64,000 bases of DNA from Chloroflexaceae bacterium (GTDB lineage Bacteria; Chloroflexota; Chloroflexia; Chloroflexales; Chloroflexaceae), in assembly GCA_025057155.1 (NCBI GenBank), contig JANWYD010000006.1:62001-126000 (forward strand), in the 5' to 3' direction. The notes under the pieces were generated by a model. The model saw only the letters and a program-made list of their open reading frames with translations, did no database searches and had not been told where the DNA came from. Positions 36,820 to 57,576 of this stretch are shown piece after piece; the stretch's first letter is position 1; every line of letters starts with the position of its first letter. The translations under genes and the position numbers were made by a program.

Positions 36820-36849
36820 GCTATGTTGCACATCAGCCTGACAGTCTGC

Positions 36850-36923
36850 TCCACACCTCCACATCACCGGTCTGTGGAGGTGTGGAGGTGTAGAGGTGTG
36901 GAAGTGTAAAGGTAGGGAAGTGA
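36850..36923. repeat. GTGGAGGT minisatellite with inverted arms
   Basis: CTCCACACCTCCACA is followed, after a short spacer, by TGTGGAGGTGTGGAG, so the tract can fold into a hairpin with 15-bp arms, and more GTGGAGGT units follow. It lies between csc1 and cas6. Sister tracts occur at 17201-17226 and 63738-63910. Confidence 0.8.
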
Positions 36924-36993
36924 AACTATGGCCCAAGGGAACGAGCAGGCTTGAATTATTTGCGGTAGGCAATCACCTGCCACGGAGGCGCAT

Positions 36994-37824: not shown

Positions 37825-38426
37825 GCATTGACATAGGTCCGCCTGAATTCATTCCGCTCTCAATGTTGAATGCCCTGGCCTACTGCCCGCGGCGCTTCGC
37901 CTACGAGTTCATTCAGGCCGAAATGCTGTTGAACGAACACGTGGTTGAGGGCCACCTGCGGCACGAGGGCGTCGATCTGGGCGGCACGACATGGCTGGAA
38001 GACACGGTGCAACACCGGCGGGTGTACGTCTGGAGCAACCACCTGCGGATCGCCGGCTTCTGCGACGTTGTCGAAGCGCGCGGCGGAGAACGCTATCCGG
38101 TGGAGTTCAAGAAAGGCCGGCCGGGACGCTGGCAGAACGATCACGCACAGATCTGCGCCCAGGCCCTTTGCCTGGAGGAGCGCACCGGCGCACGGATCGA
38201 ACGGGGCTTCATCTTCTACTTCGCGGCGCGGCGGCGGGAGGAAGTGCGCTTCACGCAGGAACTACGCGCCGAGGTCGAGCATCTGGCGCGCGAGGCCCAC
38301 CGCCTGGCGGCAGCCGGGACCCTGCCGCCGCCGATTGACCAGCGCGCCCGCTGCCGGGCCTGCTCGCTCGAGCCTCTATGCCTGCCCGACGAAATCCGTC
38401 AACTAACTGGCGCGGTTGCAGGCTGA
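37821..38426 (+). CDS. cas4: CRISPR adaptation nuclease Cas4
   Basis: A 201-residue Cas4. Iron-sulfur ligands are Cys22 (LAYCPRRF) and the C-terminal group Cys178, Cys181, Cys187 (CRACSLEPLC). The PD-(D/E)xK nuclease site shows as Asp82 (FCDVV) and Glu95-x-Lys97 (YPVEFKKG). It trims new spacers and helps choose the PAM together with Cas1-Cas2. It is translationally coupled to cas6. Confidence 0.93.
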   Translation: MSIDIGPPEFIPLSMLNALAYCPRRFAYEFIQAEMLLNEHVVEGHLRHEGVDLGGTTWLEDTVQHRRVYVWSNHLRIAGFCDVVEARGGERYPVEFKKGRPGRWQNDHAQICAQALCLEERTGARIERGFIFYFAARRREEVRFTQELRAEVEHLAREAHRLAAAGTLPPPIDQRARCRACSLEPLCLPDEIRQLTGAVAG

Positions 38427-38652
38427 TGGTTGATAGTGTACCAGACAGTACTCCGACCCTCACCGGCGGGGCCTGTAGCGTCTCTCGAAACGATCGACTC
38501 GCAACGATGGCAGTGCGAGCGCAGCAAGCCATAAGGCTCAGTGGCTTGCGTGGATCAAGCATTCCGGTCAGTGCTCTCAGTTCGCCTCATTCGCCCATGC
38601 TCGGAGACAACCATCTATGATTGACATCCCTGGACCTGGCGTGGAGGTTTGT
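38427..38652. other. cas4-cas1 gap with dispersed ~95-bp element
   Basis: Most of this 226-bp gap is a copy of a dispersed element (38479-38577) that recurs at 45652-45750. GGAGG at 38644-38648 is the cas1 ribosome site. Confidence 0.8.
38479..38577. repeat. Dispersed ~95-bp element, copy 1
   Basis: Shares CTCGAAACGAT, CGCAACGATGGCAG, GGATCAAGCAT and GTCAG/ATCAG-GCTCT blocks, in the same order and spacing, with copy 2 at 45652-45750. It lies immediately before cas1. No coding content is seen. It could be a MITE or a small structured RNA element. Confidence 0.8.
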
Positions 38653-39690
38653 ATGGCAACCCTGTATCTCACCGAACAATACAGCGTCGTCAAACTCGAA
38701 GGTGAGACCCTGCGGGTGCAGGCCGCGGGCGGACGCAACGGCGACGCGATCCGGGTTCCGCTCAACAAGATCGAACAGATCATGGTGCTGGGCGAGATCA
38801 CCCTGACCACTCCGGCGCTGCACGAACTCCTCAAGCGCCGGATACCGGTCCACTACCTGACCGCCTGGGGCCGTTCCTACGGCTCGCTGGTGGCCGATTG
38901 GGGCAAAAACAGCGGGGTGCGCCTGGCGCAGTACGCCCTGGCAAGGGACGTGGCGCGCAGTTTCGCCGTGGCCCGCGCTTGCATTGGAGGCAAACTGCAG
39001 AACATGCGCACGCTGCTGCTGCGCTACGCCCGCGGGCGCGACAATGACGCCGCGCTGCAGGAAGCGGCCCAGAGCATCCGGCGCTACCTGCGTGACCTCG
39101 AGCGTCTGGAACCGCCCGCCGACACGAGCGACCGCATGCACGGTCTGGGGCCACTGTTGGGGCTGGAGGGCAGCGGGAGCGCTGCCTACTACAGCGTGCT
39201 GGGCATGCTGCTCAAGGGCGAATGGAACTTCACCGGACGGGTCAAACGCCCGCCCACCGATCCGGTGAATGCGGTGCTCTCCTTCGGCTACACCCTGCTC
39301 ACCAACCAGACGGTATCCCTGGTCCACGCCGTCGGGCTCGATCCGGGCCTGGGCGTGCTGCACCAGCCGGGCTTCGGCAAACCGGCGCTGGCCCTGGACA
39401 TTGTCGAAATGTTTCGCCCGATCATCGTGGACTCCGTCGTAATGACCATGATCAACACCGGCCAGTTGACGCCCAGAGACTTTGAAGAAGAACTGGGCGC
39501 GTACCGGTTACGGGATGGCGCACGGCGAACCTTTCTGGAGAAATTCGAAGCCCGGCTCAACGAACAGGTGCAACATCCCCTGTTTGGATACCGGGTCAGC
39601 TACCGGCGCTGCATCGAACTTCAGGTCCGGCTGTTCGCCAAATACGCCCAGGGGGAAATTGAACGTTACGTTCCGTTTACCGTGCGCTAG
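38653..39690 (+). CDS. cas1: CRISPR integrase Cas1
   Basis: A 345-residue Cas1. The N-terminal beta domain starts MATLYLTEQYSVVKLEGETL. The metal site in the helical domain is Glu172 (GLEGSGSAAYY), His237 (GVLHQPGFGK) and Asp249 (LALDIVEMFRP). ATG 38653 has GGAGG 5 bp upstream, so the frame from 38617 is not used. It inserts new spacers with Cas2. The 3' end of the gene is duplicated downstream (39740 onward). Confidence 0.95.
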   Translation: MATLYLTEQYSVVKLEGETLRVQAAGGRNGDAIRVPLNKIEQIMVLGEITLTTPALHELLKRRIPVHYLTAWGRSYGSLVADWGKNSGVRLAQYALARDVARSFAVARACIGGKLQNMRTLLLRYARGRDNDAALQEAAQSIRRYLRDLERLEPPADTSDRMHGLGPLLGLEGSGSAAYYSVLGMLLKGEWNFTGRVKRPPTDPVNAVLSFGYTLLTNQTVSLVHAVGLDPGLGVLHQPGFGKPALALDIVEMFRPIIVDSVVMTMINTGQLTPRDFEEELGAYRLRDGARRTFLEKFEARLNEQVQHPLFGYRVSYRRCIELQVRLFAKYAQGEIERYVPFTVR

Positions 39691-40096
39691 GCGCTTCCAA
39701 GCTTAAGTTTTATTGCAGACAGATCAGCTTCATTGGCATGTTACGTTCCGTTTACCGTGCGCCAGGCACTTCCACATCACGGAGGGTCGCGCAGAGCAGT
39801 CACCGGGAGCGCGGATCGTGATGACATCTGGGCGTGCGCCTACTACACCTACCGGTGCAGTCGCGAAGAGCGGTCACCGGGAGCGCGGATCGCGATCCGC
39901 GCAACAAGTGCGCTAGGCGCTTCCACACCACGGAGGGTCGCGAAGAGGGCCTGCTCGCCGAAAAACCTGCTCGCCGGCCTATGAGGTTGTGCGCGCTCCC
40001 CGGCCAGGTACGTGGCGGAAACCTCATTAGAGGATCTCTGGCGGCGCCACTCGCCTCAGGGCTCAGATCCGATATACAAGAAACGACATACATATC
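39691..40096. repeat. cas1-cas2 gap with ~75-bp periodic duplications of the cas1 3' end
   Basis: GTTACGTTCCGTTTACCGTG and the next 15 bases, the end of cas1, recur at 39740; part recurs at 39908. A second block, GTCACCGGGAGCGCGGATCG, is present at 39799 and 39873. Distances between copies are 74-75 bp or about twice that. No gene is seen. Confidence 0.8.
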
Positions 40097-40390
40097 ATGG
40101 GAGCCTCAGCAACCACAACGCTCTACATCATCGCCTATGACATTCCCGACGATCGGCGACGGACAAAGGTGCACCGGCTGCTCTGCGGATACGGCGCCTG
40201 GACGCAGTACTCCCTCTTTGAATGCTGGCTCACGCGGCGCCAACTCGTAGAGCTGCGGGCCAAACTGGCACGGCACCTGCTGGAGGAGCGTGACAGCGTG
40301 CGGTTCTACCCGCTCTGTGGCGCGTGCCGCGAGCAGGTATTGACCGTAGGGGGGCCGAAACCGCGCGATCCGGTAACGGTCATTCTCTGA
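40097..40390 (+). CDS. cas2: CRISPR adaptation protein Cas2
   Basis: A 97-residue Cas2 with the ferredoxin-like start TTLYIIAYDIPDDRRRTKV (Asp15 is the conserved acidic residue) and the usual C-terminal CREQVLTVGG. It bridges two Cas1 dimers in the integrase. The ribosome site is weak. It is the last cas gene, 420 bp before the first repeat. Confidence 0.93.
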   Translation: MGASATTTLYIIAYDIPDDRRRTKVHRLLCGYGAWTQYSLFECWLTRRQLVELRAKLARHLLEERDSVRFYPLCGACREQVLTVGGPKPRDPVTVIL

Positions 40391-40810
40391 AGGACGCCAC
40401 GGCCCCGATCAGGGGACCATCAAATCTTTGCCGACAGGGTTGACCGCTACCGAACAGGTTCGCACCCGCTACGACCCGGACCTCGTACGTGGAGCGAGAG
40501 GCCCTCGACCCCGACCCGGCGGCCGAACAGGTTCGCACTACATCCTCTGCGTCCCCTGCGCGCTCTGCAGTAAGTTTAAACATGGTACGTCTCCGCCATA
40601 TCGCCACGCGCCAGGCGCGATTCGAGTAGCGAAGCATGGGGTCTCAGAGCGGGAGGTGCTCGCATGACACGATTGGGCATTCCAGCGCGGCGGAAGTCAT
40701 GGTACAATGGGAATCCGGTCGCCGATTCACGGCACAGTGTGCCTGCATGCGCGCGCTACTCGCAACAGCGCGCTTCCCTGGCGTCCTGAAGCGGTAACGA
40801 GCGTGTAGGG
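40391..40810 (+). promoter_or_regulatory. CRISPR leader region of array 1
   Basis: 420 bp with no gene, upstream of the first repeat. A TGGTACAAT extended -10 box (40700-40708) about 100 bp before the array could drive pre-crRNA transcription. CCGAACAGGTTCGCAC occurs twice, at 40450 and 40523, exactly 73 bp apart. Confidence 0.65.
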
Positions 40811-43633
40811 GTCGAAAAGGCCACTAATCCGCAAGGCGGATTGAAACTTTTGAGCAACCGCGGCGGGTTCGGGTTCGGATTGTGTCGAAAAGGCCACTAA
40901 TCCGCAAGGCGGATTGAAACGGAGGCGGCAGCAGAGGCGGAAGCTCCCCGCCGAGGGTCGAAAAGGCCACTAATCCGCAAGGCGGATTGAAACGACAACA
41001 CAACGCGGTCCACGCCGTACGAGGGCAAGTCGAAAAGGCCACTAATCCGCAAGGCGGATTGAAACCACCGGTACGAGTGCGGTGACGGCGCGTGTCTGCA
41101 CAGGTCGAAAAGGCCACTAATCCGCAAGGCGGATTGAAACTCTGGTACCGGCGGTTGGGAGCCAACAGGCTGATGATGTCGAAAAGGCCACTAATCCGCA
41201 AGGCGGATTGAAACCGCCATAATAGTGTTGCGAGTTACAGGCGAGTTACGGTCGAAAAGGCCACTAATCCGCAAGGCGGATTGAAACCCACGCTCCCGGT
41301 AGTTGAACGTGGCAAATCCGGGTCGAAAAGGCCACTAATCCGCAAGGCGGATTGAAACCAATGTCTCGCGTCCGTATATTGCCAAATTGTGCGGTCGAAA
41401 AGGCCACTAATCCGCAAGGCGGATTGAAACTCATCGGATGGGCGGTCGGGCGGTGTGGTCATAGGGGTCGAAAAGGCCACTAATCCGCAAGGCGGATTGA
41501 AACTGAGGTTGAGGATACGATGCCGGAAATGTGAGCACGGGTCGAAAAGGCCACTAATCCGCAAGGCGGATTGAAACGTTCGTTTCATCTGCCGATAGCA
41601 CATCACCAGATAACGGTCGAAAAGGCCACTAATCCGCAAGGCGGATTGAAACTCAGTGTCTGGACAGCAAAGTGATGACGTGTTCTGGCGTCGAAAAGGC
41701 CACTAATCCGCAAGGCGGATTGAAACCGATGAAAACATCATGGGCCGGCCCGAGGGGGGCGGGTGTCGAAAAGGCCACTAATCCGCAAGGCGGATTGAAA
41801 CACAACGATAGTTCCCGACGCAGACCATGCCATCCTTGTCGAAAAGGCCACTAATCCGCAAGGCGGATTGAAACTATCACCTGCAGCGCCCAATCGTGCA
41901 GATCTCCCTGGTCGAAAAGGCCACTAATCCGCAAGGCGGATTGAAACGCGGTTTTAAAGCGTCCTGATAACGTCCCCTGGAAGGGTCGAAAAGGCCACTA
42001 ATCCGCAAGGCGGATTGAAACTTATTGAGCAGGCTCGAATGGCCGCGGTACTGGACGGTCGAAAAGGCCACTAATCCGCAAGGCGGATTGAAACTCGGCG
42101 ATGAGGGGGAAGAAGACATTGAAAACCATCCGGTCGAAAAGGCCACTAATCCGCAAGGCGGATTGAAACCCCCGGTCCCGCCTCGTGCTCAAAATCGGCC
42201 ATCGCGGTCGAAAAGGCCACTAATCCGCAAGGCGGATTGAAACTACAACAAGTCCGTTCAAGCGCAAGCGCACCCGCCGGGGTCGAAAAGGCCACTAATC
42301 CGCAAGGCGGATTGAAACGTTCGACTCCGACCTGGCCCGCGCCGTGACACTCGGTCGAAAAGGCCACTAATCCGCAAGGCGGATTGAAACATAGGTCCGA
42401 AAGGCGTCCGCGATCGCCTGAGAGCGTCGAAAAGGCCACTAATCCGCAAGGCGGATTGAAACAGGATATCCGCCGCGTGGCGTGTCACGGTGCGGCCGTC
42501 GAAAAGGCCACTAATCCGCAAGGCGGATTGAAACGCGTATCAAAAAGCTCAACGCAGCAACGACGCAGGAGGTCGAAAAGGCCACTAATCCGCAAGGCGG
42601 ATTGAAACGTATCATGGGCACACGGCGGGCAGGCCGCGCGTTTGGGTCGAAAAGGCCACTAATCCGCAAGGCGGATTGAAACGTCGCAGAATAAGTTACC
42701 CAGCAGCCCCCGCAGGATGGTCGAAAAGGCCACTAATCCGCAAGGCGGATTGAAACGGTCGTTTCCTTGCGCACGCTGGCTTTCAGCGCCGTCGAAAAGG
42801 CCACTAATCCGCAAGGCGGATTGAAACCTGTCTTGCAGCTTCGTGCGAGCCAGGCGCACGAAGGTCGAAAAGGCCACTAATCCGCAAGGCGGATTGAAAC
42901 CCAGGCCCAGAACTGCATCAGGAACGCCCGGCCCAGGTCGAAAAGGCCACTAATCCGCAAGGCGGATTGAAACTGCGTGCGTATGCGCCATATGACCTTT
43001 GATTGGTCAAGTCGAAAAGGCCACTAATCCGCAAGGCGGATTGAAACCATAAATACGATATTAATTCAGCGTATCCCTACGCGGTCGAAAAGGCCACTAA
43101 TCCGCAAGGCGGATTGAAACCTCATCTACATCATTAGGAAACGATAACCATGGAAGGTCGAAAAGGCCACTAATCCGCAAGGCGGATTGAAACTCCGGCC
43201 TGGTCAAGGACGGCGTTTTGACCCCCGCCGGTCGAAAAGGCCACTAATCCGCAAGGCGGATTGAAACACGCCCAGGTGCTGGCTCACCGCGGCAATTCCG
43301 ACGGTCGAAAAGGCCACTAATCCGCAAGGCGGATTGAAACGAGAGGCGTGTGCACGTACAACGTGCACGCGCCTTTCGTCGAAAAGGCCACTAATCCGCA
43401 AGGCGGATTGAAACTGATACCAGCAGGCGGGGAGAGGCGGCTCAGAATGGGTCGAAAAGGCCACTAATCCGCAAGGCGGATTGAAACATCACTCGCTCCC
43501 GGATTGCGCCGGCATGCCCGGCGTCGAAAAGGCCACTAATCCGCAAGGCGGATTGAAACATGTACTCGGAGTTTTTGGCGGCATTACACAACCACGGTCG
43601 AAAAGGCCACTAATCCGCAAGGCGGATTGAAAC
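40811..43633 (+). CRISPR. Type I-D CRISPR array 1: 39 repeats, 38 spacers
   Basis: The repeat is 37 bp, GTCGAAAAGG...GGATTGAAAC, and all 39 copies read are identical, so the array looks active. Spacers are about 34-39 bp. The repeat contains the hairpin AATCCGC-AAG-GCGGATT (7-bp stem) followed by GAAAC, the usual Cas6 substrate. Repeat orientation, cas genes and the leader all point to transcription on the plus strand. Repeat starts run from 40811, 40884, 40957 ... to 43523 and 43597. Confidence 0.98.
43341..43377 (+). other. Spacer 35 of array 1 containing a 14-bp hairpin
   Basis: Inside the 37-nt spacer, AGGCGTGTGCACGT and ACGTGCACGCGCCT are inverted repeats (one G-T) around an ACA loop, followed by TTTC. 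The protospacer therefore looks like a terminator or another palindromic site of a phage or plasmid. Confidence 0.8.
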
Positions 43634-43655
43634 TTCAATTGTTAATGTGCTATAG

Positions 43656-44484
43656 GGGGACTAAAACCTACACCCTTATCGGGCCAGGTCGCATTCCTCA
43701 CGACCCATCCGAACAACCTCAATCTCCCACGGCGGTCCAGGACGCTGCGCTCGTGTGCTTGAGCGTGCTGAGCGCCGTGTCCGAACAACCTCAATCTCCC
43801 AGGGCGGTCCAGGACGACCACAATCGCCGCGATCGTCGTATTCCGCACGACCCGTCCGAACAACCTCAATCCCCGCAAGGGGATTAAAACTATATGATCC
43901 TGACTTCATTCCACGGCGATTACATCGTCCGAACAACCTCAATCCCCGCAAGGGGATTAAAACCCGCTTGGACGATCCCAACGGACGGGAGCATCACGCT
44001 GGGTCCGAACAACCTCAATCCCCGCAAGGGGATTAAAACATCAGCGTCGAGATCGACGCGAGCAGGTCATCTGCCGTCGTGTCCGAACAACCTCAATCCC
44101 CGCAAGGGGATTAAAACCTCGGTCTCCCCGTCCGCACCATCCGGCTCGTTGACGGCGGTCCGAACAACCTCAATCCCCGCAAGGGGATTAGAACTCCAGC
44201 GTGTTATACGCAAACGCGAGTTGTTCTTCCTCCGAACCACCTCAATCCCCGCAAGGATCTCCGAGGCGCTGAGCGGCATGGTCGGATTCCAGGTTGTTCT
44301 TCCTCCGAACCACCTCAATCCCCGCAAGGGGATTAGAACTCATTCGCTTTGCCCAGGGCCGCGGAAAAAATGTCCTCCGAACAACCTCAATCCCCGCAAG
44401 GGGATTAGAACCTAGACTCGATGACGAGTCCCATTCCGTTGGGCGTCCTCCGAACAACCTCAATCCCCGCAAGGGGATTAGAAC
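43656..44484 (+). CRISPR. CRISPR array 2: decayed array with a different repeat
   Basis: The consensus repeat is 37 bp, GTCCGAACAACC...GGGGATTAAAAC. A truncated half-repeat (43656-43667) is followed by 11 units at 43707, 43779, 43854, 43927, 44003, 44081, 44158, 44230, 44303, 44375 and 44448. The first two have an abnormal 3' half, the unit at 44230 is truncated, and the last several end ATTAGAAC and start with C instead of G. The intact stem is AATCCCC-GCAA-GGGGATT. It has no leader and no cas genes of its own. Confidence 0.93.
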
Positions 44485-44599
44485 CCGCTCACCCGGCGGA
44501 GCGTCCCGGCTGGTCATCCTCGGCACGTCGTGACACTAAAGGCGTTCTCAAAAATGGCATACTGCGTCCTGATGCGCTAGCATTTGGAGGCGGCAACGG

Positions 44600-46324: not shown

Positions 46325-46629
46325 GAGAGGGGTCGGGGAAACCAGGTTGCCCTGAGATCCGCTGCGCCCGATATAGGGACGCTCACGAGGCTCCGATCAG
46401 GTAGGGATGGGTGTTCTGTCCGCCTTTAAACCCCGGAGGGGGTGGAGGTTCAGCTAAAAACTTCGTTCACAGACTTAATAAGCCATAGGCTAACGTCCTG
46501 CATAGGACGAGCGTGAGTTTTATCGCTCCTCGATAAGACCCCGTATTGACATCACGCCTGCTACCCTCTACACTGATAGCTATCACTGCATACCAACAAG
46601 CGCAGGCACAGGTACGGTCGGTCGTTTCG
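46325..46629 (+). promoter_or_regulatory. Promoter region of the CHAT-protein gene
   Basis: Contains the palindrome CGTCCT-GCAT-AGGACG (46494-46509), then TTGACA (46546-46551), a 17-bp spacer and TACACT (46569-46574), a near-consensus sigma-70 promoter. The promoter sits inside the longest open frame, so translation should begin further down, at GTG 46630. The palindrome 36 bp before the -35 box may be an operator. Confidence 0.7.
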
Positions 46630-49392
46630 GTGGACATCCTTTCAATTATCTTTTTACCAGAATGTGTTGACGTTCCAGTTGATGCTTTCGAAGCTGACCT
46701 GCCGCTGTTGATCCGCTGGGAACAAACGACCCCGGACGGGCGACGGATCACCCTCACGGCAGAGAGCAGCGGATGCTGCCGTTTGCCTACGCCCCGCGCC
46801 GTCAGGTTGCTGGCGGATCTTTTCGATGACACCCAGGCCGGACGCACCTACTGGATGCTGGCCCAGAAGACGGAGCACTGGCAGGCGCTCCATACGCTTG
46901 GACTGACCGATGGGGTGATATGCAGCGATTTCTCGCGACCTACCGGGGCGTTGCGCGAACCGGCGCGCTTCGTAGGTGTTAATCTGTTCCGGCGTCTGGC
47001 TGCGATACGTTCTCCCGAAGGGCGATTGTCCGCGCAACGGCTCATCCAGGCCTTTCTTGACGATCATCCTCCCGCTCCGCTCCCCGCAGAGACCAGGCCT
47101 GGATGTCTGATGATCAATCTCTCCCTGCTCGGGGCTCGCAACGACTGGTACAATCCCCTGCTCCTGCTGCCCTGGGAAGCGCTGACCGAACCGGAGCGCC
47201 CCGCACCGCTGCAGATCGAGCGCCCCATCGTTATCGTTCGCACTATCGCGGCGGACCCGTACCAGCCACCGGAGGAGTTGAACCTGGAGCAGCCGGCGCC
47301 GATGCTGGCCCTGCTGCCGCACAAGGCGATAACGCCTGAAATCCGCGCCGCCGAGCGCCGCGCGCGCCCCTATGCGCCCCGGCGGCATCGCCAGGAACTG
47401 GTCTGGTGCGACTGCCCCAAACCGCGCCCCGGCGTCAGAAGGGCCCATCTGCGCACGATATTCGAGCGGCACGCGCCGGCAGCGCTGCACTACTTCGGCC
47501 ACGGCGCCTTCTGGCCCCTCGATCCCGGGCGCCTCATCAACGCGCTCCAGATTGATGACGCCTTGCTGGGCGCGCTCGAGCTGGCCACGCAGACTCACGA
47601 TTGCCCGATCTGGCTCTTCTGTTGCTTTGCCTGCCACTCGGGGACGCCGGGCGATCAGAGCGAGCAGCCGCTCACCAGCGAACGCTGGAGCATCATCAAC
47701 ACTTTCAGCGGCAGCGTGCCGGCCATGCTGATGATGACCATCGCGATCAGCGCTGCCGCAGCAGGCGTTGCCGGCGAAGCCTGGTACGCGGCCCTGGCCC
47801 GCGGCGCGACCCTGTTGCAGGCGGCGCACCAGATGCGCCGGGCGCTCTGGCAACATGCCCTCCATCAACAGGGTCACTGGTCCGCCGACAGGCACGCCTG
47901 GTGGATCCCCGCCCTGTACCTGCGCCATCCCTGCTGGGATCGCGCCCTGGTGAACCATACGGCCTGGCAGCGACGCCTGCAACCGCCGGGGCAGTACTAC
48001 CCGCCAAACAGGGAACAGCAGGAACACATCAAGACCATCTTCGAGCGGCTTGAACATAGTCGCTACCGGGTGGTCAACGTGCACGGACCGACGCCGCAAA
48101 CCTCGCGCACCACCCTGCTGCACCAGATTGCCGCAAGGCTGCGCGCGGAGCGGAAGGGCCACCTGCTCCTCTCGGCTCCCGGTGATGGACAGCCAGGCGG
48201 CGTTGATCGCCTGGCTCTGCTGAAAAACGTGATCATCACCCGCCTCCGTCAGGCCCGCGGCCTGCATGCCCATTGGGACGGGCAAAGCCTCAAACGGGCA
48301 ATGTCCGACCATCCAGACTCCGAGGATCTGCACAGGCGCTATGTCGCGGCGCTGAAGGCCCATCGCCGAAAGCCGTTCTGGGTGCTGATTGACGATATTG
48401 ACTGGCCTGGCGAGCCGCAAAGCCAGGACGGTCGCAAACCCTTCCCCGGTCTCAGCCTGCTGCCGCTGAACGAGTGCGGGGAGACGCAGGTGCGCTTTAT
48501 CGTTACCACGCGGAACCCGGAGTTTGGCCGGCAACTGTACATGAATGTCCTCAAGCTCGAGGCGGATGAGACCATCAGTATTCCGCGCCTCTTTACTCAA
48601 CCGCGGCCCTACCTCCATAGCGCGGATGCCTTTACTGAATGGTTCATTCAGCGCAAGGGGCAACTGGCATACCGCCTGCTGGCCGTGCTGCTCATCGCAG
48701 ACCAGGCGCTGCACGAGACGACACTGCGGGCCTACTGCGAGATGCAAACCCTGGGTGAAGACACCGATGTCGCGAAGGCGCTACAACATCTGAAGGAAGA
48801 AGAACTGGCGGCTTACGATGGCCAGCGCTACCAGGCGCGCCTCGATAGCACGCTGGTCAGGCACTGGGCCGGCGATGAAGGGACCGCCCCCATCCGCGCC
48901 GAGATTCGCGCCTGGTTCAAGAGATGGTACGAGCGGGTGGCGCGGGAAACGTTGCGCAAACAGCACAACGTTCTTCCCGAGGACCTGCTCCGCTTGATCC
49001 TCAAACGCTCGCTCTTTGAGACGCCTTCGCGCTACGAAATTGCCGATTACAACTTTGACGAGACCGCCGACCGGGACAACGCGCTCTATCGCTGGTGGCT
49101 GATCCTGCTGGAAAGCGCGGCACGGTACGGTCTTGAGGCATCACTGGCCGACTACGTCGCCGACCTTGCCCGCAGCGACACGCCATACACGGCGTGCGAT
49201 CGGAAGCTCCTCAACTATCTCGAATGCTGGTTGCGGGGAACGGCATCGCGCGGCGCTTTCGGGCCGCTGATGGAAGAGAGCCTGGACGCCGTGCATCGCC
49301 GCGATCCGAAGAACCATACCCAGATCGGCGCGTTTTTCAACGCATTGCGATCACTGCGGACCGTTTTCGAGCGATCCTCCGAGCATCAATAG
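46630..49392 (+). CDS. CHAT-protease protein with degenerate P-loop NTPase domain
   Basis: About 920 residues from GTG 46630; the longer frame from TTG 46546 reads through a sigma-70 promoter and is rejected. The middle holds a CHAT (caspase-like) peptidase: His291 in LHYFGHGAF and Cys335 in CCFACHSG form the expected dyad. The C-terminal part resembles a STAND/AAA NTPase: Walker B is intact (VLIDDIDW, Asp588) but the P-loop is GPTPQTSRTT (about 486-495), lacking the Lys and Gly of GxxGxGK[ST]. The role is probably a protease effector or signal transducer controlled by neighbouring NTPases. Confidence 0.75.
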   Translation: MDILSIIFLPECVDVPVDAFEADLPLLIRWEQTTPDGRRITLTAESSGCCRLPTPRAVRLLADLFDDTQAGRTYWMLAQKTEHWQALHTLGLTDGVICSDFSRPTGALREPARFVGVNLFRRLAAIRSPEGRLSAQRLIQAFLDDHPPAPLPAETRPGCLMINLSLLGARNDWYNPLLLLPWEALTEPERPAPLQIERPIVIVRTIAADPYQPPEELNLEQPAPMLALLPHKAITPEIRAAERRARPYAPRRHRQELVWCDCPKPRPGVRRAHLRTIFERHAPAALHYFGHGAFWPLDPGRLINALQIDDALLGALELATQTHDCPIWLFCCFACHSGTPGDQSEQPLTSERWSIINTFSGSVPAMLMMTIAISAAAAGVAGEAWYAALARGATLLQAAHQMRRALWQHALHQQGHWSADRHAWWIPALYLRHPCWDRALVNHTAWQRRLQPPGQYYPPNREQQEHIKTIFERLEHSRYRVVNVHGPTPQTSRTTLLHQIAARLRAERKGHLLLSAPGDGQPGGVDRLALLKNVIITRLRQARGLHAHWDGQSLKRAMSDHPDSEDLHRRYVAALKAHRRKPFWVLIDDIDWPGEPQSQDGRKPFPGLSLLPLNECGETQVRFIVTTRNPEFGRQLYMNVLKLEADETISIPRLFTQPRPYLHSADAFTEWFIQRKGQLAYRLLAVLLIADQALHETTLRAYCEMQTLGEDTDVAKALQHLKEEELAAYDGQRYQARLDSTLVRHWAGDEGTAPIRAEIRAWFKRWYERVARETLRKQHNVLPEDLLRLILKRSLFETPSRYEIADYNFDETADRDNALYRWWLILLESAARYGLEASLADYVADLARSDTPYTACDRKLLNYLECWLRGTASRGAFGPLMEESLDAVHRRDPKNHTQIGAFFNALRSLRTVFERSSEHQ

Positions 49393-49494: not shown

Positions 49495-50958
49495 ATGCCT
49501 GTGCAGATCCGACGCTGGCTGGAAGTTCAGGGGTTTGAACGCAATCCGTTCGAGTATTACGAGGCCGATCGCGAAGAACTGCTTGCCAGTTACTTCGTCG
49601 AGCCGGAGTGGTTCGAGGCCCTGCGGGGCGATCCGCGCCAGCCGGCCAGCGCGGTGCTGTTTGCGCCCCGCGGGTACGGCAAGACCAGCCAGCGCTTGCA
49701 GATTGCGCGCCTCTGCGGCCTGGAGGCGCAGCCGCCGGCTCTGGTTGTGCAGATCACCGACTATAAATGGTTGCCGGCCGATCTGACCACCCTGACCGCC
49801 CGCGATTACCTCCGTTATGTCGCCGACCAGGCCTGCCGGCAGCTCTGGGAACACTGCCAGCGCAACCCGGAGTTCCATCGGCGCTTCCACGAGCAACCCC
49901 ACGCCCTGCTGCGCCTGCACGCTCTCCGGTACTGGGCCGCTCCGCCCTCGTACCGCCTGCGTCTGCCCGAGCCAGCCCTGGGCCCGGAAACCGTGGCCGA
50001 GCTGGCCCGCACGTTTCGCCTGCCTGCCGCAGGCGGCGACGCCCATGCCCTGGTTGAGCAGTTCGCCCGGCACTATGAGGGCCTCAGCGATAGCGACCTG
50101 CAGAGCGAACTCCTCGAACTCGCGCGCATAGGCGGCTTCGTCAGCCTGTACATTCTCCTGGACCGTACCGATGAGGATCAATGGACGGTGCACAATCCGG
50201 CGATGGTGCTGGCCCGCCTGCAGCCGCTGATCAGCGATCTGCCCGTGCTTGAGCACCCAGGCTACGCCTTCAAGTTCTTCCTTCCCGACGCGCTCCAGTC
50301 CCTGTTCGCTGAGCGCCGCGTCGGGCGGGTCGGCGAACGCCCGCCCAGTTATCTGTTGCGCTGGCGTGACCACGACCTGCTGGCCATGCTGGCCCGGCGC
50401 CTGCAAGCCTACAGCCAGCCCGCGGGCCGGGTCACCCGCGCGGCGCGCGTCAATCGCTTTCAGGATCTCTGTGAATCCGGCAGCAATGCCGACGAGCGGC
50501 TGGTGCAAGCCGCCGCGGGTTCCCCCCGTCGTATGATCCAGCTCGCCCGCGAACTGGTCGAGCAACATTGCACACAGATTGACAACCCGGAAGCCAGGAT
50601 CCCTCGCACCCTGCTCAACAGGGTCATTCCCCTCCCTGTCCCCCTGCTCTCCCTCGACGCCGAGGGCTTTGTCTGCTTCGATGGACAACGCGCCGAGACG
50701 GTGCAGTTGACCGAGATGGAGCGGAAGGTGCTCACCGAACTCTGGCGCCAGCGCGGCAAACTGATTTCCAAACGTGATCTGACGAATGCGATTTATGGCA
50801 AGAGCGAGCCAAACGACATAGAGGCGCTGGAAAAAACCATCAAACGGCTGCGCCCCAAACTTGCTCCACCCCGGAACTTGACAGAAGAGCAGTGCAAATA
50901 TATTGATTATGTACGACAGAGCGGATATCGCCTCGTGAATTACGATCCCGACCAGTAA
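49495..50958 (+). CDS. P-loop ATPase with C-terminal OmpR-type winged helix
   Basis: A 487-residue protein. The N-terminus (RRWLEVQGFERNPFEYY) leads to Walker A APRGYGKTSQ (Lys63) and Walker B LYILLDRTDED (Asp223). The C-terminal 85 residues (about 400-483) form an OmpR/PhoB-like winged helix: LTEMERKVLTELWRQRGKLI, then EALEKTIKRLRPKL and YVRQSGYRLVNY. This is a signal-responsive transcription factor layout, with the ATPase replacing a receiver. It lies between the CHAT gene and the NTPase operon. Four 11-bp-spaced sites follow its stop codon, the spacing OmpR-type proteins use. Confidence 0.8.
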   Translation: MPVQIRRWLEVQGFERNPFEYYEADREELLASYFVEPEWFEALRGDPRQPASAVLFAPRGYGKTSQRLQIARLCGLEAQPPALVVQITDYKWLPADLTTLTARDYLRYVADQACRQLWEHCQRNPEFHRRFHEQPHALLRLHALRYWAAPPSYRLRLPEPALGPETVAELARTFRLPAAGGDAHALVEQFARHYEGLSDSDLQSELLELARIGGFVSLYILLDRTDEDQWTVHNPAMVLARLQPLISDLPVLEHPGYAFKFFLPDALQSLFAERRVGRVGERPPSYLLRWRDHDLLAMLARRLQAYSQPAGRVTRAARVNRFQDLCESGSNADERLVQAAAGSPRRMIQLARELVEQHCTQIDNPEARIPRTLLNRVIPLPVPLLSLDAEGFVCFDGQRAETVQLTEMERKVLTELWRQRGKLISKRDLTNAIYGKSEPNDIEALEKTIKRLRPKLAPPRNLTEEQCKYIDYVRQSGYRLVNYDPDQ

Positions 50959-51030: not shown

Positions 51031-51074
51031 CCTGTCCGAGAATTGTCGGCTTCCTGTCAGGTTTCCGTCAGGAC
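51031..51074. promoter_or_regulatory. Four tandem operator-like sites at 11-bp spacing
   Basis: CTGTCCGA (51032), TTGTCGGC (51043), CTGTCAGG (51054) and CCGTCAGG (51065) are spaced exactly 11 bp, consensus YYGTCnGG. OmpR/PhoB/SARP winged helices bind tandem direct repeats of this period. A TGTACCAT extended -10-like box follows at 51104-51111. Confidence 0.7.
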
Positions 51075-51161
51075 GCTCTCCTCTTCCCATCCGCCGAAAG
51101 GGGTGTACCATTCGGAAGACTGGGTGAAGACCGGGTCATGCCGTTTTGCGCTTAGCATGGT

Positions 51162-53012
51162 ATGGTGGCTTACAATCCGGAATCCATTGGAGTTGTATCC
51201 TTGGAAGCAATAGAAACAAACGTTTCAAAAGCCTTTTTTGGACGAAGACCCCTGCTCTATGAGTACTTTCGCTCCATTCGCAGTTTCTTACAAAATCGTA
51301 ATAAAGATTACTTTTTTCACATCTATGCGCTTACCGGCATGGGGAAAACCTGGCTGATCTGGATGCTGTTCCTTGCGCTGCGCGAGGGGCGGCTCAGCGC
51401 CACGTGCTGGATCAGCTTCGCTCCGGCGGACGAACAGCCTCCCCTCACCACTCCGCCCGACTGGCTGTCGTGGACGCTGGTCTACCAGCCGGGACCGCCG
51501 CTGGCGCCGTTGATGACCCGCTCGATGGCCCTGAACGAACTCTGTGACAACCTGTTGCGACGCTTTGGCCTTAATGGCGCGCATAGCGAACAACTCGGGG
51601 CGATCGCCGGCAATCTTCAGGTTGCAGCGATCCTGCCCGACGATGAAGCCGCGCCACAGTACCGCGACCGGCTGGTGGTGTTCCTCGACGGTCTCGACCA
51701 GTTGGAGCAACGTATCGGCGTTGACGCTCAGGCCCTCTGGGAGGCCCTGCAAACCCACCTCTTGCGCCCTCTGTACCTCACCGGCAGGGTGCTGTGCTTC
51801 ACTACCGGACAGGGCCAGCTCGTCTGGCGTTATTTTGAACTGGCTCGGGTGGTGCACGAACAGCCCTTGCCCGGGCTGAACCCGCGTGAGATACGTGAGA
51901 TGGCCCGGCACTATGAACTTGACCCCCTCGCGGGCGAGGTGTATATGCTTACCCAGGGACACCCCTACCTCGCGGAGCATCGTTTCCGCCAGACCCGACA
52001 GGAACTTGCGGCCTCAGGCGCGGCAACTGACATCCGCCCGGCCATCACCGACGTTTCACCACCACCGGTTACCGATCCGGGCGACCTGGTGGAGCGGCTC
52101 GCCCCGGCATCGCGACAATTGCTCCCCGTGGCCGGGCTGCTGCGCAGCCTGGATCTGGGGGCTCTGGCCACCGCTATACAGCAGGTGCCCGGCCTGGCCA
52201 TTCCGCCCTTCCGTCTGGCCGATCTGCACGCCGCGCTGGGCGATTACCTGGCCGCCGATCTGGTGGCGGAGCACGGCAGCGCGCCGCTGCGCTATCTCTG
52301 GCGCGCTGAACTGGTCCCGGCGCTGACCGATCTGGCCGAGCGTGAACTGGATGCCCGGGTGCGGACCGAGCTCCATGACCGGTTCGCCGACTGGTACGCG
52401 CAACAACTTGAGACAAACCCCCAGCGGTATGGTTTCTTAATCAACGAGTGGATGTTCCACAGTCTCAGCGCCCTGCCCCCCGGTCCTTCCGCCTGCGCGC
52501 GGTGGGCCGAACAGTTTCGCTGGCTCTGGTGGCGCGTGGGGTCCTCGCGAAGGGCGCAACTGCTCTACGAGGACGCTTCCCTGCAGGCGCTGCTCGCCGC
52601 TCGCGATTGCCAGCAGCGGGCCGCCGCGATTATTCGCTTCGTGCCCGATCAGCGCGAGCGCCGGGCCGAACTCTATCCGCAGATCCTTGACCACCTGCGC
52701 CGGCAACGGATCAGGGGCGGTGAGACGCCGCTTGGTGATGAGGATATTGCCCTCCTGCGCGACCTGGCGGCTTTGCCGTCCTTTGGCGTCGCCGAGGTTC
52801 GTGAGGCTATCGGCAAGCAACGCGATAACCGCTCCTCCAGAGTCGTTACGCTATCCGAAGCCATGGAACGCCTGGAGCGCCTGACGACCAGCTATGTCGT
52901 CATCCACGATGAGCCGGCCAGGGCCTTTGTGGTGGAACCCTGGCTCAAGCAGGTGCTAACAACCTGGAGGGATAAGGAGACCGAAGGTGGCGATACCGAT
53001 CCCGATTGCTGA
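51162..53012 (+). CDS. STAND-like NTPase, first of the operon
   Basis: A 616-residue P-loop protein. Walker A is LTGMGKTWL (Gly59-Thr63) and Walker B is LVVFLDGLDQLE (Asp176). The following region (GQGQLVWRYF ... PGLNPREIREMARHY) has the look of a STAND/AAA helical arm and sensor region. About 290-616 is helical with no recognised domain. The first 50 codons are strikingly A+T-rich compared with the rest. Its 3' end overlaps the next gene by 26 bp, so the two proteins are likely made together and may interact. Confidence 0.72.
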   Translation: MVAYNPESIGVVSLEAIETNVSKAFFGRRPLLYEYFRSIRSFLQNRNKDYFFHIYALTGMGKTWLIWMLFLALREGRLSATCWISFAPADEQPPLTTPPDWLSWTLVYQPGPPLAPLMTRSMALNELCDNLLRRFGLNGAHSEQLGAIAGNLQVAAILPDDEAAPQYRDRLVVFLDGLDQLEQRIGVDAQALWEALQTHLLRPLYLTGRVLCFTTGQGQLVWRYFELARVVHEQPLPGLNPREIREMARHYELDPLAGEVYMLTQGHPYLAEHRFRQTRQELAASGAATDIRPAITDVSPPPVTDPGDLVERLAPASRQLLPVAGLLRSLDLGALATAIQQVPGLAIPPFRLADLHAALGDYLAADLVAEHGSAPLRYLWRAELVPALTDLAERELDARVRTELHDRFADWYAQQLETNPQRYGFLINEWMFHSLSALPPGPSACARWAEQFRWLWWRVGSSRRAQLLYEDASLQALLAARDCQQRAAAIIRFVPDQRERRAELYPQILDHLRRQRIRGGETPLGDEDIALLRDLAALPSFGVAEVREAIGKQRDNRSSRVVTLSEAMERLERLTTSYVVIHDEPARAFVVEPWLKQVLTTWRDKETEGGDTDPDC

Positions 53013-56000
53013 ACGCTATATTGGTCAGCAACCGACGATTGAGGCCCTGCACGCCGCTCTCGAACGGGCCGGCACGGACACGGACCATTGCCACATGCTC
53101 TACGTCGAGGGCGGGGGCGGTCAGGGCAAGACGTTCTTTCTGCGCCAGATACCGTCGCTGGTTGAACCGCAACCGGCCTTCATCGCCCGGATCGTTGACC
53201 TGGCGGATACGCAGAACCGCAACGGCCCGTTTCTGGAGCAGACGATCATCGAGGGCCTGTCGGACAATCAGGAACAACCGCATCGCCTGGCGCCTGATGC
53301 GCTGCAAGCGGCATTCGTCACTTACTACGCGCTGCGCAAGCAACTGGAACGCGATCGCGATCGGCTGGCCGGGGCGGCCTATGAGTCCCGCTGGGCCGAG
53401 GTGCGCGCGGCTTTCGCCGAGGCGCTCAACCAGATCGCCCTGCAACGCCCGGTGATTTTGCGCTTCGATACGGCCGAGTCGCTCACCGGCGAGCCGCCCG
53501 AACCCGAACTGCAAGAACTGCTCGCCAGCACCCGGCGCGCCGCTGGCATCGAGCTGCGCTTGCCCTCGGCCCTCGATCTCTTCTTCGACTGGTTCAGCGC
53601 TGTCATTCCCCGGCTGCGGCGCGTGCTGGTGCTGATCTGCGGGCGTCCGACGCCTGCCGCCCGGCCTGATGCCACCCTCCTGGGACGCTGCGCCGACCTG
53701 CCGCGGGTGACGATGCACCAGTCGGCCCTGCACCCTCTCAATCGCGAGGAGATTGCCGAGTACCTCCGGGACGCGTCAAGCGACTTCACGCCCGACCAGG
53801 TTGACCAGGCGTACCGCATCAGTGGCGGCGCGCCGCTGCTGGTCGCCAGCTATGTCTGGCTGCGCATGACCGACCGGCAGCCTTCGTTCACCGCCGGCAG
53901 TCGGAGCGACTTCGAACGCCACCTGATCACGCAGGTGCTCAACCCCGTTATGCCCTGGGCCAGCTTTCCCATCAAGGTCCTGGCCTACTGCCTCTACGTC
54001 CTGGCCTATGCCCGCCGCGGCCTGACCCGCGAGCAACTCAACGCCTTTCTTGCCGAGCAGGATCTGCCAGCCCCACACGAGAGCTTTACCAGCGAGGAAC
54101 GCCGCCAGTACGCCGATCTGATCGCCCATCTGGGCGAGGTGGCCCTGGTGAAGGAACGCCCCCAGAGCGGGTTGTTGTACCTCCACGACGAAGTCCATCG
54201 CATGATTGACGAGTGGCAGATTGCCGACCGGATGGACCTGCGCGGCGAGACGCTCCGCTACCTCCGTGACCTGGCGGTCGCCGAACATGAAAACCGCCTG
54301 CGCGTTCGCGCCGTCGAACCGGCGGAACGCGCTGCATTGCTGGTGGCTATCAGCAATCGGCTTTTCTATGAACTCGAACTCGACGTTTCCACCGGCTATG
54401 CGGAGTACCTGCTCGCCCAGCTCCGCCTCTTCAACAACCGCGAGTACGAACTGCCCCTCCTGCTCCGCGATGAGTTCTGGCGCTGGATCAACCTGCAGGC
54501 CACCGATTCTGAAAACGAAGGGCGCAGCTATCAGCCGCGGCGCGACCAACTGACCGACGCGCCAGCCTCCCACTTGAACCTGAAGCATCTGGTCGCCGAC
54601 GATCTCCTCTGGCTGTTGCGCTACAACCTGGCCCGCAACGAGAACCGCCAGGCCGTCGCGCTGGGCCGCCAGGCGCTCGTGGATTTCCTGCCCCAGTACA
54701 GCGACGACGCCTACTTTCACTACGATCTCAAACAAACCCTTGCTCACGCCCTGACGCTCTATCACAATCAGGAGGTGCTCTACACCGGGGCCGAGGACCA
54801 CTTCCGCGAGGCCCTGGCGATCGCGCAACGGGTGCCGGAGGAACCCGCCCTGTTGCCGCGCCAGCGTTTCTTTCGCGCGTATATCAACTATCTCCTGGGA
54901 CGCACCCGGACGCTGCTTGGCTACATGTATCGCACCGTGCAGGAATATGAACGGGCCTACGCCGAGTATCAGGAGGCCTATCAACACTTTCAGGATATCC
55001 AGCATGAGAGCGCAACCTCCCGGCTCGCGCTCTACCTGCCCGTTGGCGATGAGATGGCGCAGATCCGCATTAATCAGGTGTTTGTCCTGGCGCACCTGGG
55101 CGACTTTGACGAGGCCGAGCGACTGCTCATCGAGCTGAGGACGGCCATCCGCCACGGCCAGATTTCGCCGGTGCGCCAGGCGCTCATTTTCAACGTCAGT
55201 TCAATCCTCGAAATCCAGCGCAACCGGCCTGAAGCCGCCGAGGCTTTCGCCAAACGCGCTCGCACGCTGGCCGCCAGCACCGGGAATGAGCGGGTGCTGG
55301 CACAGGTGAATTACCAGCTAGGCATCGCCTCGCACGAACTGTTGAAACATCCGCCCTACCCGGTCGATCTGTCGGCTGAGGAGTACTTCCGCGCCGCGGC
55401 CGAGTTCTTCCATAGCGCCAACGAACGAACGAGCCTGTGTGATGTGCTCCTCGACTACGCGCGCTATTTGCGTACCCTGGCCCACAATGAGAGCCGCAAA
55501 GCCAATCCTGACCGTGTGCGAATGAACGAGTTGTTTGATCGCGCCCAACACACGCTTGACCTGGCTAACGAGGCAGTGAGCGAAACACCGCTTACCGGGC
55601 ACATCACCCTGCCCGCCGTGGAGATCACTGTTGAACGCGCCTTTCTCCTGCGCCTGAAGCACGAGCGCGCCGAAGCGCTACGCGTCCTCGATGAAGCGGA
55701 AGACCTTATCCGGCGCCATCGCCTCCCTCGCCGCGCGCTCCTTATGAGTGCGACGATCGCCTTCGAGCGCGCCTGGCACCGGGCCGAGGAAAACCAATCT
55801 CGGGTCTTCCTGCACCACCTCCTGATCGCCCTGGTCCATTGCCGCATCTACGCGCGCAATGATCGCACCTATCTGCGGTTCTGGGAGATCATCCGGGGCG
55901 ACCTGAACGCCTATCCGCGCGATTTCCTGTTCGCCGCGCAACACGTCCTCGACCATGCCGACCGGGACCTCCCGGCCACGCCGCCAGCGCTGATGGCCGG

Positions 56001-56115
56001 GCCGCTCGATCCGGATACGCTCCATCAGTACACACAACAGTGGCCGGGGTTCTGGAACGAAGAATGCCGGTTTTTGCAAAACGAGGTCGAGATCCAACTG
56101 TCCAGGTTGGGATAG
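52987..56115 (+). CDS. STAND NTPase with TPR-like helical repeats
   Basis: A 1042-residue protein from a GTG start with a good GGAG ribosome site inside the upstream gene. Walker A is GGGGQGKTFF (42-51, Lys48) and a Walker-B-like strand is VILRFDTAES (Asp161). The C-terminal half has TPR-like helical pairs (YERAYAEYQEAYQHF, FDEAERLLIELRTAI, RPEAAEAFAKRARTL, ERAEALRVLDEAEDL). Such proteins sense a ligand through the repeats and oligomerise. The radical SAM gene follows after 18 bp. No effector domain was found in it, so an effector may be supplied by the CHAT protein. Confidence 0.78.
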   Translation: MAIPIPIAERYIGQQPTIEALHAALERAGTDTDHCHMLYVEGGGGQGKTFFLRQIPSLVEPQPAFIARIVDLADTQNRNGPFLEQTIIEGLSDNQEQPHRLAPDALQAAFVTYYALRKQLERDRDRLAGAAYESRWAEVRAAFAEALNQIALQRPVILRFDTAESLTGEPPEPELQELLASTRRAAGIELRLPSALDLFFDWFSAVIPRLRRVLVLICGRPTPAARPDATLLGRCADLPRVTMHQSALHPLNREEIAEYLRDASSDFTPDQVDQAYRISGGAPLLVASYVWLRMTDRQPSFTAGSRSDFERHLITQVLNPVMPWASFPIKVLAYCLYVLAYARRGLTREQLNAFLAEQDLPAPHESFTSEERRQYADLIAHLGEVALVKERPQSGLLYLHDEVHRMIDEWQIADRMDLRGETLRYLRDLAVAEHENRLRVRAVEPAERAALLVAISNRLFYELELDVSTGYAEYLLAQLRLFNNREYELPLLLRDEFWRWINLQATDSENEGRSYQPRRDQLTDAPASHLNLKHLVADDLLWLLRYNLARNENRQAVALGRQALVDFLPQYSDDAYFHYDLKQTLAHALTLYHNQEVLYTGAEDHFREALAIAQRVPEEPALLPRQRFFRAYINYLLGRTRTLLGYMYRTVQEYERAYAEYQEAYQHFQDIQHESATSRLALYLPVGDEMAQIRINQVFVLAHLGDFDEAERLLIELRTAIRHGQISPVRQALIFNVSSILEIQRNRPEAAEAFAKRARTLAASTGNERVLAQVNYQLGIASHELLKHPPYPVDLSAEEYFRAAAEFFHSANERTSLCDVLLDYARYLRTLAHNESRKANPDRVRMNELFDRAQHTLDLANEAVSETPLTGHITLPAVEITVERAFLLRLKHERAEALRVLDEAEDLIRRHRLPRRALLMSATIAFERAWHRAEENQSRVFLHHLLIALVHCRIYARNDRTYLRFWEIIRGDLNAYPRDFLFAAQHVLDHADRDLPATPPALMAGPLDPDTLHQYTQQWPGFWNEECRFLQNEVEIQLSRLG

Positions 56116-56133: not shown

Positions 56134-57576
56134 ATGCCATCTGCAAGCGAGTTCAGTCTCCTCTTCGATCACGGCGACGACCCGGACAAGAGCGAAGCCG
56201 TCACCGACTGCGACTGCGCCTGTCCTGTCGCGCTGCCGCCGCCTGCCACTCCGCCCCCGCCCGCCGCGCCGCTCTACCCGCACCCCGACCTGCGACGCCT
56301 GCCCCTCTCGGACCGGGCCTGGGTAGCCTTTGTGCCGTCCTTCAGCCGGGTGGCGGTGCTCGATCAGGCCACCTGGGACCTGCTCTATACGCCACCGCCC
56401 GCCCGCCCGCCCGACGCCAGGGCGGGGAACATTCTGGCAACCGCCCATCACCTCGGTCTGCTGATCGCTCCTGGCGAACCGCCCCGCGCGCCGCTTCGGC
56501 CTGACCGGCTGCTGGCCTGGCTGCATGTGACCAATGCCTGTAATCTGCGTTGCACGTACTGTTACCTGCACAAGAGCGGCGAGCGCATGTCATCGGCGAC
56601 CGGCCGCGCGGCCATTGACGCGACGTTTCGTTCCGCCCTCGCCGCGGGCTACCAGCGGGTCGAGTTCAAGTACGCAGGGGGCGAGGCGCCCCTGCACCTG
56701 GAGCGGGTCGCCGAACTCCATCGCTACGCCGCCTCGCGGGGCGCAGAACACGGCCTGGAGGTTCGCGGTCGTATCCTGAGCAACGGGACAACACTCACCC
56801 CTCAACGTCTGGCGCTGATCGCCGAACTGGGGATCGGCCTGATGGTGTCCCTTGATGGGCTTGGCGCCGAGCACGACGCGCAGCGCCCCACCACGCGCGG
56901 TGGCGCCTCGGCCCTCGCCGCGCTGAACGGCCTGCGCCGCGCCCTGGCCTGCGATCTCCAGCCAACGGTTTCGATTACTGTCACCCCCCAGAGCGTCACC
57001 GGCCTGCCCGCGCTTCTCGGTGAATTGCTCGACATGGGCGTGTACTTCACCCTGAACTTCGCCCGGCCCGTCACCGCTGCCGCCCCGGCGATTACCGCGG
57101 CTGAGGAGCGCATCATCGAGGGACTTCGGGCGGCATACGCCGTTATTGCCGGGCGACCGCTGCGCTACAGTCTGCTCGGCGCGCTGCTCGACCGCGCCCA
57201 CCTCGGAGCCGGTCATCGCCATGCCTGCAGCGTCGGAGAGCACTACCTGGTCTTTGACCACCGCGGCAACGTCGCCAAATGCCAGATGGTCATCAACGAA
57301 CCGATCACCACCGTAGCCGCGGATGATCCCCTCGCGCTCATCCGGGCTGATCGCACCGGGGTCCAGAACCTGGCGGTTGAAGCGAAGGAGGGTTGCCGCA
57401 ACTGCGAGTGGCGCTACTGGTGCGCTGGCGGCTGCGCCGTGACGACCTATCGCGTGACCGGGCGCTATGACGCGCGTTCACCCAACTGTCGCCTCTACCG
57501 GGCCCTCTACCCGGACGTGCTGCGTCTGGAGGGGTTGCGCCTGCTGGCGTTGTATGTGCCGGAGTCGTCCGCCTGA
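56134..57576 (+). CDS. Radical SAM/SPASM maturase
   Basis: A 480-residue enzyme. The N-terminal tail has Cys26/28/30 (TDCDCACPV), then a Pro-rich linker and a PqqD-like region (about 47-110, SDRAWVAFVPSFSRVAVLDQ). The radical-SAM cluster is Cys136, Cys140, Cys143 (ACNLRCTYCY). The SPASM Cys are 365, 383, 421, 424, 430, 434 and 452, matching the C-x17-C ... CX2CX5CX3C ... C pattern for two auxiliary clusters. Such enzymes modify ribosomal peptides. No clear precursor is nearby. It is co-transcribed with the two NTPases. Confidence 0.85.
   Translation: MPSASEFSLLFDHGDDPDKSEAVTDCDCACPVALPPPATPPPPAAPLYPHPDLRRLPLSDRAWVAFVPSFSRVAVLDQATWDLLYTPPPARPPDARAGNILATAHHLGLLIAPGEPPRAPLRPDRLLAWLHVTNACNLRCTYCYLHKSGERMSSATGRAAIDATFRSALAAGYQRVEFKYAGGEAPLHLERVAELHRYAASRGAEHGLEVRGRILSNGTTLTPQRLALIAELGIGLMVSLDGLGAEHDAQRPTTRGGASALAALNGLRRALACDLQPTVSITVTPQSVTGLPALLGELLDMGVYFTLNFARPVTAAAPAITAAEERIIEGLRAAYAVIAGRPLRYSLLGALLDRAHLGAGHRHACSVGEHYLVFDHRGNVAKCQMVINEPITTVAADDPLALIRADRTGVQNLAVEAKEGCRNCEWRYWCAGGCAVTTYRVTGRYDARSPNCRLYRALYPDVLRLEGLRLLALYVPESSA

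Follow-up and report, generated by a model that had tools for sequence, protein, structure and literature searches.

In the MalT/LAL group of STAND regulators, an N-terminal NTPase is followed by a C-terminal LuxR-type helix-turn-helix (HTH), and the response regulator PhoB contains a phospho-receiver domain. The Pho box of E. coli, recognized by PhoB, is built from a 7-bp word, CTGTCAT, and 4 further bp, recurring every 11 bp (PMC2648988). In PimR, a SARP-LAL protein of Streptomyces, the SARP part is N-terminal (PMC3367932) and the DNA-binding part is joined to a large ATPase part. Its main operator, located before the -35 in the promoter of the one gene that it targets, consists of three heptamers separated by 4-nt spacers, and class I activation from the helix face shared with RNA polymerase has been proposed (PMC5930380). 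AfsR, a SARP with NOD-TPR, likewise couples an NTPase to OmpR-type DNA binding and docks side by side on 11-bp direct repeats; its box overlaps the -35, and the SARP 3' repeat lies 8 bp from the -10 (PMC10936776). 

Here we describe an 11-bp direct-repeat array in a 64,000-nt stretch of Chloroflexaceae DNA (hereafter the window), located between the stop codon (50958) of a gene that we call REG and the first gene of an NTPase/radical SAM operon. The features are as follows.

46546..49392, + strand: 948-aa protein with an AAA_16-like stretch (AAA_16 E 7e-6, below cut-off), upstream of REG
49495..50958, + strand: REG, P-loop ATPase with a C-terminal OmpR/PhoB-type winged helix, proposed DNA-binding regulator (PF00486; PF24389 weak; NF047389 and NF053860 below cut-off)
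50695..50934, + strand: winged-helix domain of REG, residues 401-480 of 487 (PF00486 and profile comparisons)
51032..51075, + strand: four-unit 11-bp direct-repeat array (7-bp word and 4-bp linker), proposed REG operator
51106..51111, + strand: predicted -10, TACCAT, in the context GTGTACCAT (GTGTAACAT in the related genome G004), best -10 score downstream of the array
51162..53012, + strand: NTP1, NACHT-like NTPase encoded by the first gene downstream of the array (NACHT match below cut-off, E 0.0049)
52987..56115, + strand: NTP2, AAA_16-like NTPase with a TPR-like stretch, proposed second gene of the target operon (matches below cut-off)
56134..57576, + strand: radical SAM protein, proposed third gene of the target operon (PF04055 E 1.2e-12)

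The likeness to PimR lies in the joining of a DNA-binding part to a large ATPase part, and in the layout of heptamers with 4-nt spacing upstream of a -35 at one target. The differences lie in the C-terminal position of the REG winged helix, the Sll1717/ORC-CDC6-like ATPase, the NTPase/radical SAM operon as the target, and the bacterial transcriptional activation (BTA) domain, for which Pfam gave no match in REG at E<=0.1. With its winged helix at the C-terminus and no match to a BTA domain, REG is not a SARP; by sequence, its proposed operator has the 11-bp-spaced direct repeats of that class, and REG may, by analogy, work like PimR in a differently built protein. Relative to AfsR the domain order is reversed, and the last array unit starts 41 bp before the -10, compared with the 8 bp of the SARP 3' repeat. 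With PhoB, REG shares the winged-helix class, but it has an ATPase instead of the receiver: no receiver domain was found in Pfam, and NCBIfam response-regulator models match the winged-helix stretch only. Moreover, PhoB acts globally, whereas the three-unit pattern has one occurrence in the genome studied here. Like MalT/LAL proteins, REG combines an N-terminal NTPase with a C-terminal DNA-binding domain, but this domain is an OmpR-type winged helix rather than a LuxR-type HTH. Among the literature matches listed, no description of a REG-type regulator-operator arrangement was found; related conflict/defence systems are described in PMC7159879, PMC8195603 and PMC12839542, and in the excerpts of these papers the REG arrangement is not among them.

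The proposed regulator

The protein encoded just upstream of the array had been predicted to end in an OmpR/PhoB-type winged helix, and Pfam Trans_reg_C (PF00486) agrees, matching above its curated cut-off (E 2.9e-11, model positions 2-77 of 77). The same domain is matched by 15 of the 16 proteins of the REG alignment A2, the window protein included, and in the PDB a profile built from the 16 finds chains of RpaA, YycF/WalR and PhoB. The N-terminal part resembles P-loop ATPases of the Sll1717/ORC-CDC6-like kind, with matches below the curated cut-offs for the window protein. ORC-CDC6-like (PF24389) scores 18.9 bits against a cut-off of 27 in the window REG and matches 11 of the 16 alignment members at E<=0.01; NF047389 also falls below its cut-off. 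The anti-phage model DS41_1 (NF053860) matches the ATPase part of REG and of its 15 aligned relatives, but its best stretch in the window protein (199-367) excludes the winged helix and scores 183.9 bits against a cut-off of 370.

A structure prediction of REG from three sequences (window, L031 and L032; L and G labels denote loci and genomes) was poor, with a mean pLDDT of 46, and was unused for conclusions. In L043 (G013), REG is broken into two overlapping frames, one for the ATPase (996-2222) and one for the winged helix (2087-2494), yet an array follows the second.

The array and its close orthologues

The array is composed of CTGTCCGAGAA (51032-51042), TTGTCGGCTTC (51043-51053), CTGTCAGGTTT (51054-51064) and CCGTCAGGACG (51065-51075), whose words are CTGTCCG, TTGTCGG, CTGTCAG and CCGTCAG in order. 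The original prediction of four direct repeats starting at 51032, 51043, 51054 and 51065, one helix turn apart, is exact in both positions and spacing. Its consensus YYGTCnGG requires shortening, since the last letter holds in two of the four units (51054 and 51065), whereas YYGTCNG fits all four. Single YYGTCNGG words occur in the window at chance frequency (52 found, 51.2 expected). By four-unit self-similarity at 11 bp, position 51032 ranks first among 63,961 window positions, with a score of 31 against 30 for the next separate site (5468), and the three-unit score in the 150 bp after the REG stop was reached by 0 of 300 dinucleotide shuffles.

In the 5.1-Mb draft genome, three YYGTCNG words at 11 bp occur at a single place, the array itself (two overlapping matches), with none in the reversed control. 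Four GTC at 11 bp are also found once, and this count alone proves little because the reversed control has 3 matches. No Rfam family was found at the gathering threshold in the 40-60 kb part of the window.

Absence of the repeats before orthologous operons had been named as refuting the original prediction, which withstood this check: an array is present at the corresponding place in G003, G004 and G051. REG occurs in three of the five genomes of the genus, namely those of the window, G003 (91%) and G004 (84%), and all three also have the radical SAM gene. G003 keeps four units with four GTC in register, at p 0.17 (not significant) by the three-unit score alone. G004 has three units, i.e. one 11-bp unit fewer, and keeps the 41 bp from the last-unit start to the -10. 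In G051, from another family (REG 48%), three TGTCG units at 11 bp directly follow the REG stop and precede a TATACT -10.

Two further observations were made in these genomes. At the 5' end of NTP1 in L039 (G003), several tens of bases are directly duplicated, which is either real or an assembly effect, and another array of 11-bp period is located elsewhere in G004 (L103, G004:C149:354-389), with GTCACGG three times and a fourth GTC.

The 11-bp period across the family

The comparison drew on REG homologues from Chloroflexota. Relatives of NTP1, NTP2 or the radical SAM protein are near many of them, and NTP2 is found close to REG in many of these loci. In the combined test, three-unit self-similarity was scored in the 150 bp after each REG stop for 24 of 26 loci, leaving out G003 and G004 as near-copies of the window. 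Lag 11 has a combined z of 8.5 and lag 22 one of 5.4, with all other lags from 7 to 30 at or below 2.6, and mononucleotide shuffles gave 8.6 at lag 11. Control regions gave z 2.3 upstream of REG (23 loci) and 2.4 at 150-300 bp past the stop, and random pieces at most 1.75 in 20 draws. Four loci of one subgroup outside the 24 yielded z 5.8 at lag 11; the whole set of 11 loci tested with them, three of which were already among the 24, yielded 9.1.

The per-locus test covered 300 bp after the REG stop in 33 loci, leaving out the duplicates L059, L143, L144 and L099 and the 258-aa winged-helix protein of L151. At p<=0.05, 18 of the 33 loci are positive at lag 11 (17 of 31 without G003 and G004) and 8 at lag 22, compared with 0-4 at lags 8-10 and 12-14. 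Among the 15 loci that miss this threshold at lag 11, arrays are visible by eye in six (L039, L044, L045, L049, L091 and L096). L053 (p 0.007) and L055 (0 of 300 shuffles) have the array on the other side, upstream of REG and in front of a divergent gene; in L055 (G035) this gene belongs to the NTPase operon, and the array is on the operon's side. By eye, no convincing downstream array was seen in L051, L052, L057, L058, L092, L093 or L152. When the region upstream of REG was tested in 11 loci, L051 gave p 0.037 with an unlike word and L092 p 0.050, and the seven besides these and L053 and L055 gave at least 0.3.

After ATPase paralogues that lack the winged helix, an 11-bp array was found in 0 of 15 cases (z -0.6), of which five (L042, L043 twice, L044 and L046) run into REG coding DNA, so that at most 10 controls are comparable.

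A second arrangement is seen in L134-L137, L094 and L096, where a winged-helix REG is followed by the array and then by an ATPase paralogue of about 400-440 aa without the winged helix; a radical SAM gene is nearby on the opposite strand. In the first 250 bp past the REG stop of L044 (G017), short near-tandem words (GAACGCTC-like; lag 8, z 5.7) lie between REG and a TATCC array.

Candidate operator words

The word varies between lineages and the 11-bp period stays. TGTC or yyGTCnG arrays are found in the window, G051, G032, G030 and G011, TTCC arrays in G021 and G016, and a mixed TGTCC/GTTCC array in G028. GATCC arrays are present in G014 and G032, TATCC arrays in G017 and G013, and several units with nTCC in G026 and G025. 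GTGAG arrays occur in G060, G048, G056, G027, G042, G054 and G034.

Manual selection and registration of arrays, on copied fragments whose lengths differ, gave 44 units in 14 TC-type arrays for comparison. Nearly every unit has TC at positions 4-5, in part because the register was set on TC. Agreement within arrays is 0.49-0.96 at word positions 1-7, values inflated by the selection on self-similarity, against 0.27-0.29, near chance, at linker positions 8-11. This disfavors slippage of whole units, which would have kept the linkers alike too. At position 3, agreement is 0.76 within arrays and 0.41 between them. By eye, the recognition helices of REGs with GTGAG and GATCC arrays have distinctive sequences. 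A pairing of operator word and recognition helix is suggestive rather than firm, because shared ancestry could also produce it.

Promoter geometry and the target operon

The predicted -10 of the window is offset by 74 from unit 1, compared with 63 in G004. In G003 the site matching the window -10 ranks second, and the best-scoring -10 is elsewhere. Phase modulo 11 between each array and its best-scoring downstream -10 was examined on hand-copied fragments that differ in length, leaving out L091 (a near-copy of L054) and loci without an array. TC-type arrays are phased with the -10 (n=14, R 0.57, null 0.0066), with G014 out of phase and weak -10 scores in G030b and G013. The seven GTGAG-type arrays are also phased (R 0.96, 0 of 5000 shuffles), and these loci are relatives and not independent. 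If transcription starts near 51118, the window words would reach from about -86 to about -46; judged by eye, the -35 of the window is poor.

NTP1 probably starts at the TTG at 51201 rather than at the ATG at 51162, judging from a GGAG that ends 8 bases before the TTG and from G004, where a manual count along the sequence puts the corresponding ATG out of frame. The radical SAM protein is SPASM-type by model names and by eye, and NCBIfam peptide-maturase models match it below cut-off. PADLOC matched this protein alone, to viperin models (best E 5.5e-13); we read the match as the shared radical SAM domain. The 948-aa protein upstream of REG is CHAT-like by eye only, and no model matched it as such.

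Cas-like genes (by eye) and two kinds of CRISPR-like repeat arrays, which show as recurring peptides such as FNPPCGLVAFST, occupy 36175-44500 of the window. In the order, the REG profile is found in 22 of 82 genomes and the radical SAM protein in 33 of 82. The NTPase/radical SAM operon may plausibly have a conflict role, given the distant anti-phage ATPase model, this patchy distribution, and the CRISPR-like arrays a few kb away.

Discussion

From the comparative evidence we consider it highly probable that the array is the operator of REG, and that REG would activate the NTPase/radical SAM operon much as PimR does at its own target. The tie between regulator and operon that the original prediction had drawn is supported, as an inference, by the appropriate winged-helix class, the orthologous arrays, the 11-bp arrays at diverged REG loci, and their absence after paralogues without the winged helix (five of these 15 controls running into REG coding DNA). 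Several REG molecules may dock next to one another on one DNA face, each contacting one 11-bp unit with its C-terminal winged helix. Docked just upstream of the poor -35, they would recruit RNA polymerase to the NTP1-NTP2-radical SAM promoter, and the ATPase part of REG may gate docking by signal-dependent assembly.

REG might instead bind the array and repress the operon, since the array position alone does not fix the sign of regulation. Repressor sites usually overlap the promoter, and the arrays are situated before the predicted -10, with the helix face fixed, and next to a poor -35 in the window; we therefore regard repression as unlikely. Another reading takes REG to be uninvolved and the array to be the box of a global PhoB/RegX3-type response regulator, which would place the operon, for example, in a phosphate regulon. 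The unit CTGTCAG plus 4 bp does closely resemble the CTGTCAT plus 4 bp of the Pho box excerpted in PMC2648988. A global box should recur, however, and three YYGTCNG units occur once in 5.1 Mb; arrays are also located downstream of REGs with a winged helix in different lineages, with changing words, and none was detected after the paralogues lacking that domain. The involvement of a global regulator thus seems distinctly improbable.

The weak ORC-CDC6-like match of the REG N-terminus, seen in 11 of the 16 alignment members, would suit an initiator with iterons, in which case the array would be an origin for replication or maintenance. Winged helices are also present in ORC/Cdc6 proteins. The same has been described for BrxC-type ORC/Cdc6 ATPases in an excerpt of PMC12839542. 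However, the winged helix of REG is of the OmpR/PhoB type, the arrays are followed by a phased -10, and the locus is on a 280-kb contig among chromosomal-looking genes (by eye), leaving very little probability for an origin. Short repeats arise easily, and single words occur at chance frequency, so that chance or replication slippage might have produced a short 11-bp tandem repeat. This origin of the array is disfavored by the combined z and the per-locus tests, which reveal the period across loci far above the control lags, and by linkers that are unrelated between units while the words are kept; we find it scarcely credible.

With activation by REG as the preferred reading, we tentatively suggest, as a possibility with clearly less than even chances, a family of ATP-gated switches. 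In such a family a sensor ATPase of the ORC/Cdc6-like kind, ending in an OmpR-type winged helix, would assemble on a private 11-bp array at an invader signal and turn on a conflict-type operon of NTPases and a radical SAM peptide-modifying enzyme. Lineages would re-code the word together with the recognition helix, which may insulate parallel copies.

The analysis turns a motif from one sequence into a testable regulator-operator pair with comparative support and natural variants. With at least four operator words, each matched to winged helices whose sequences are known, these variants would provide material for a recognition code, and the proposed pair may serve as a handle for switching on the uncharacterized NTPase/radical SAM operon.
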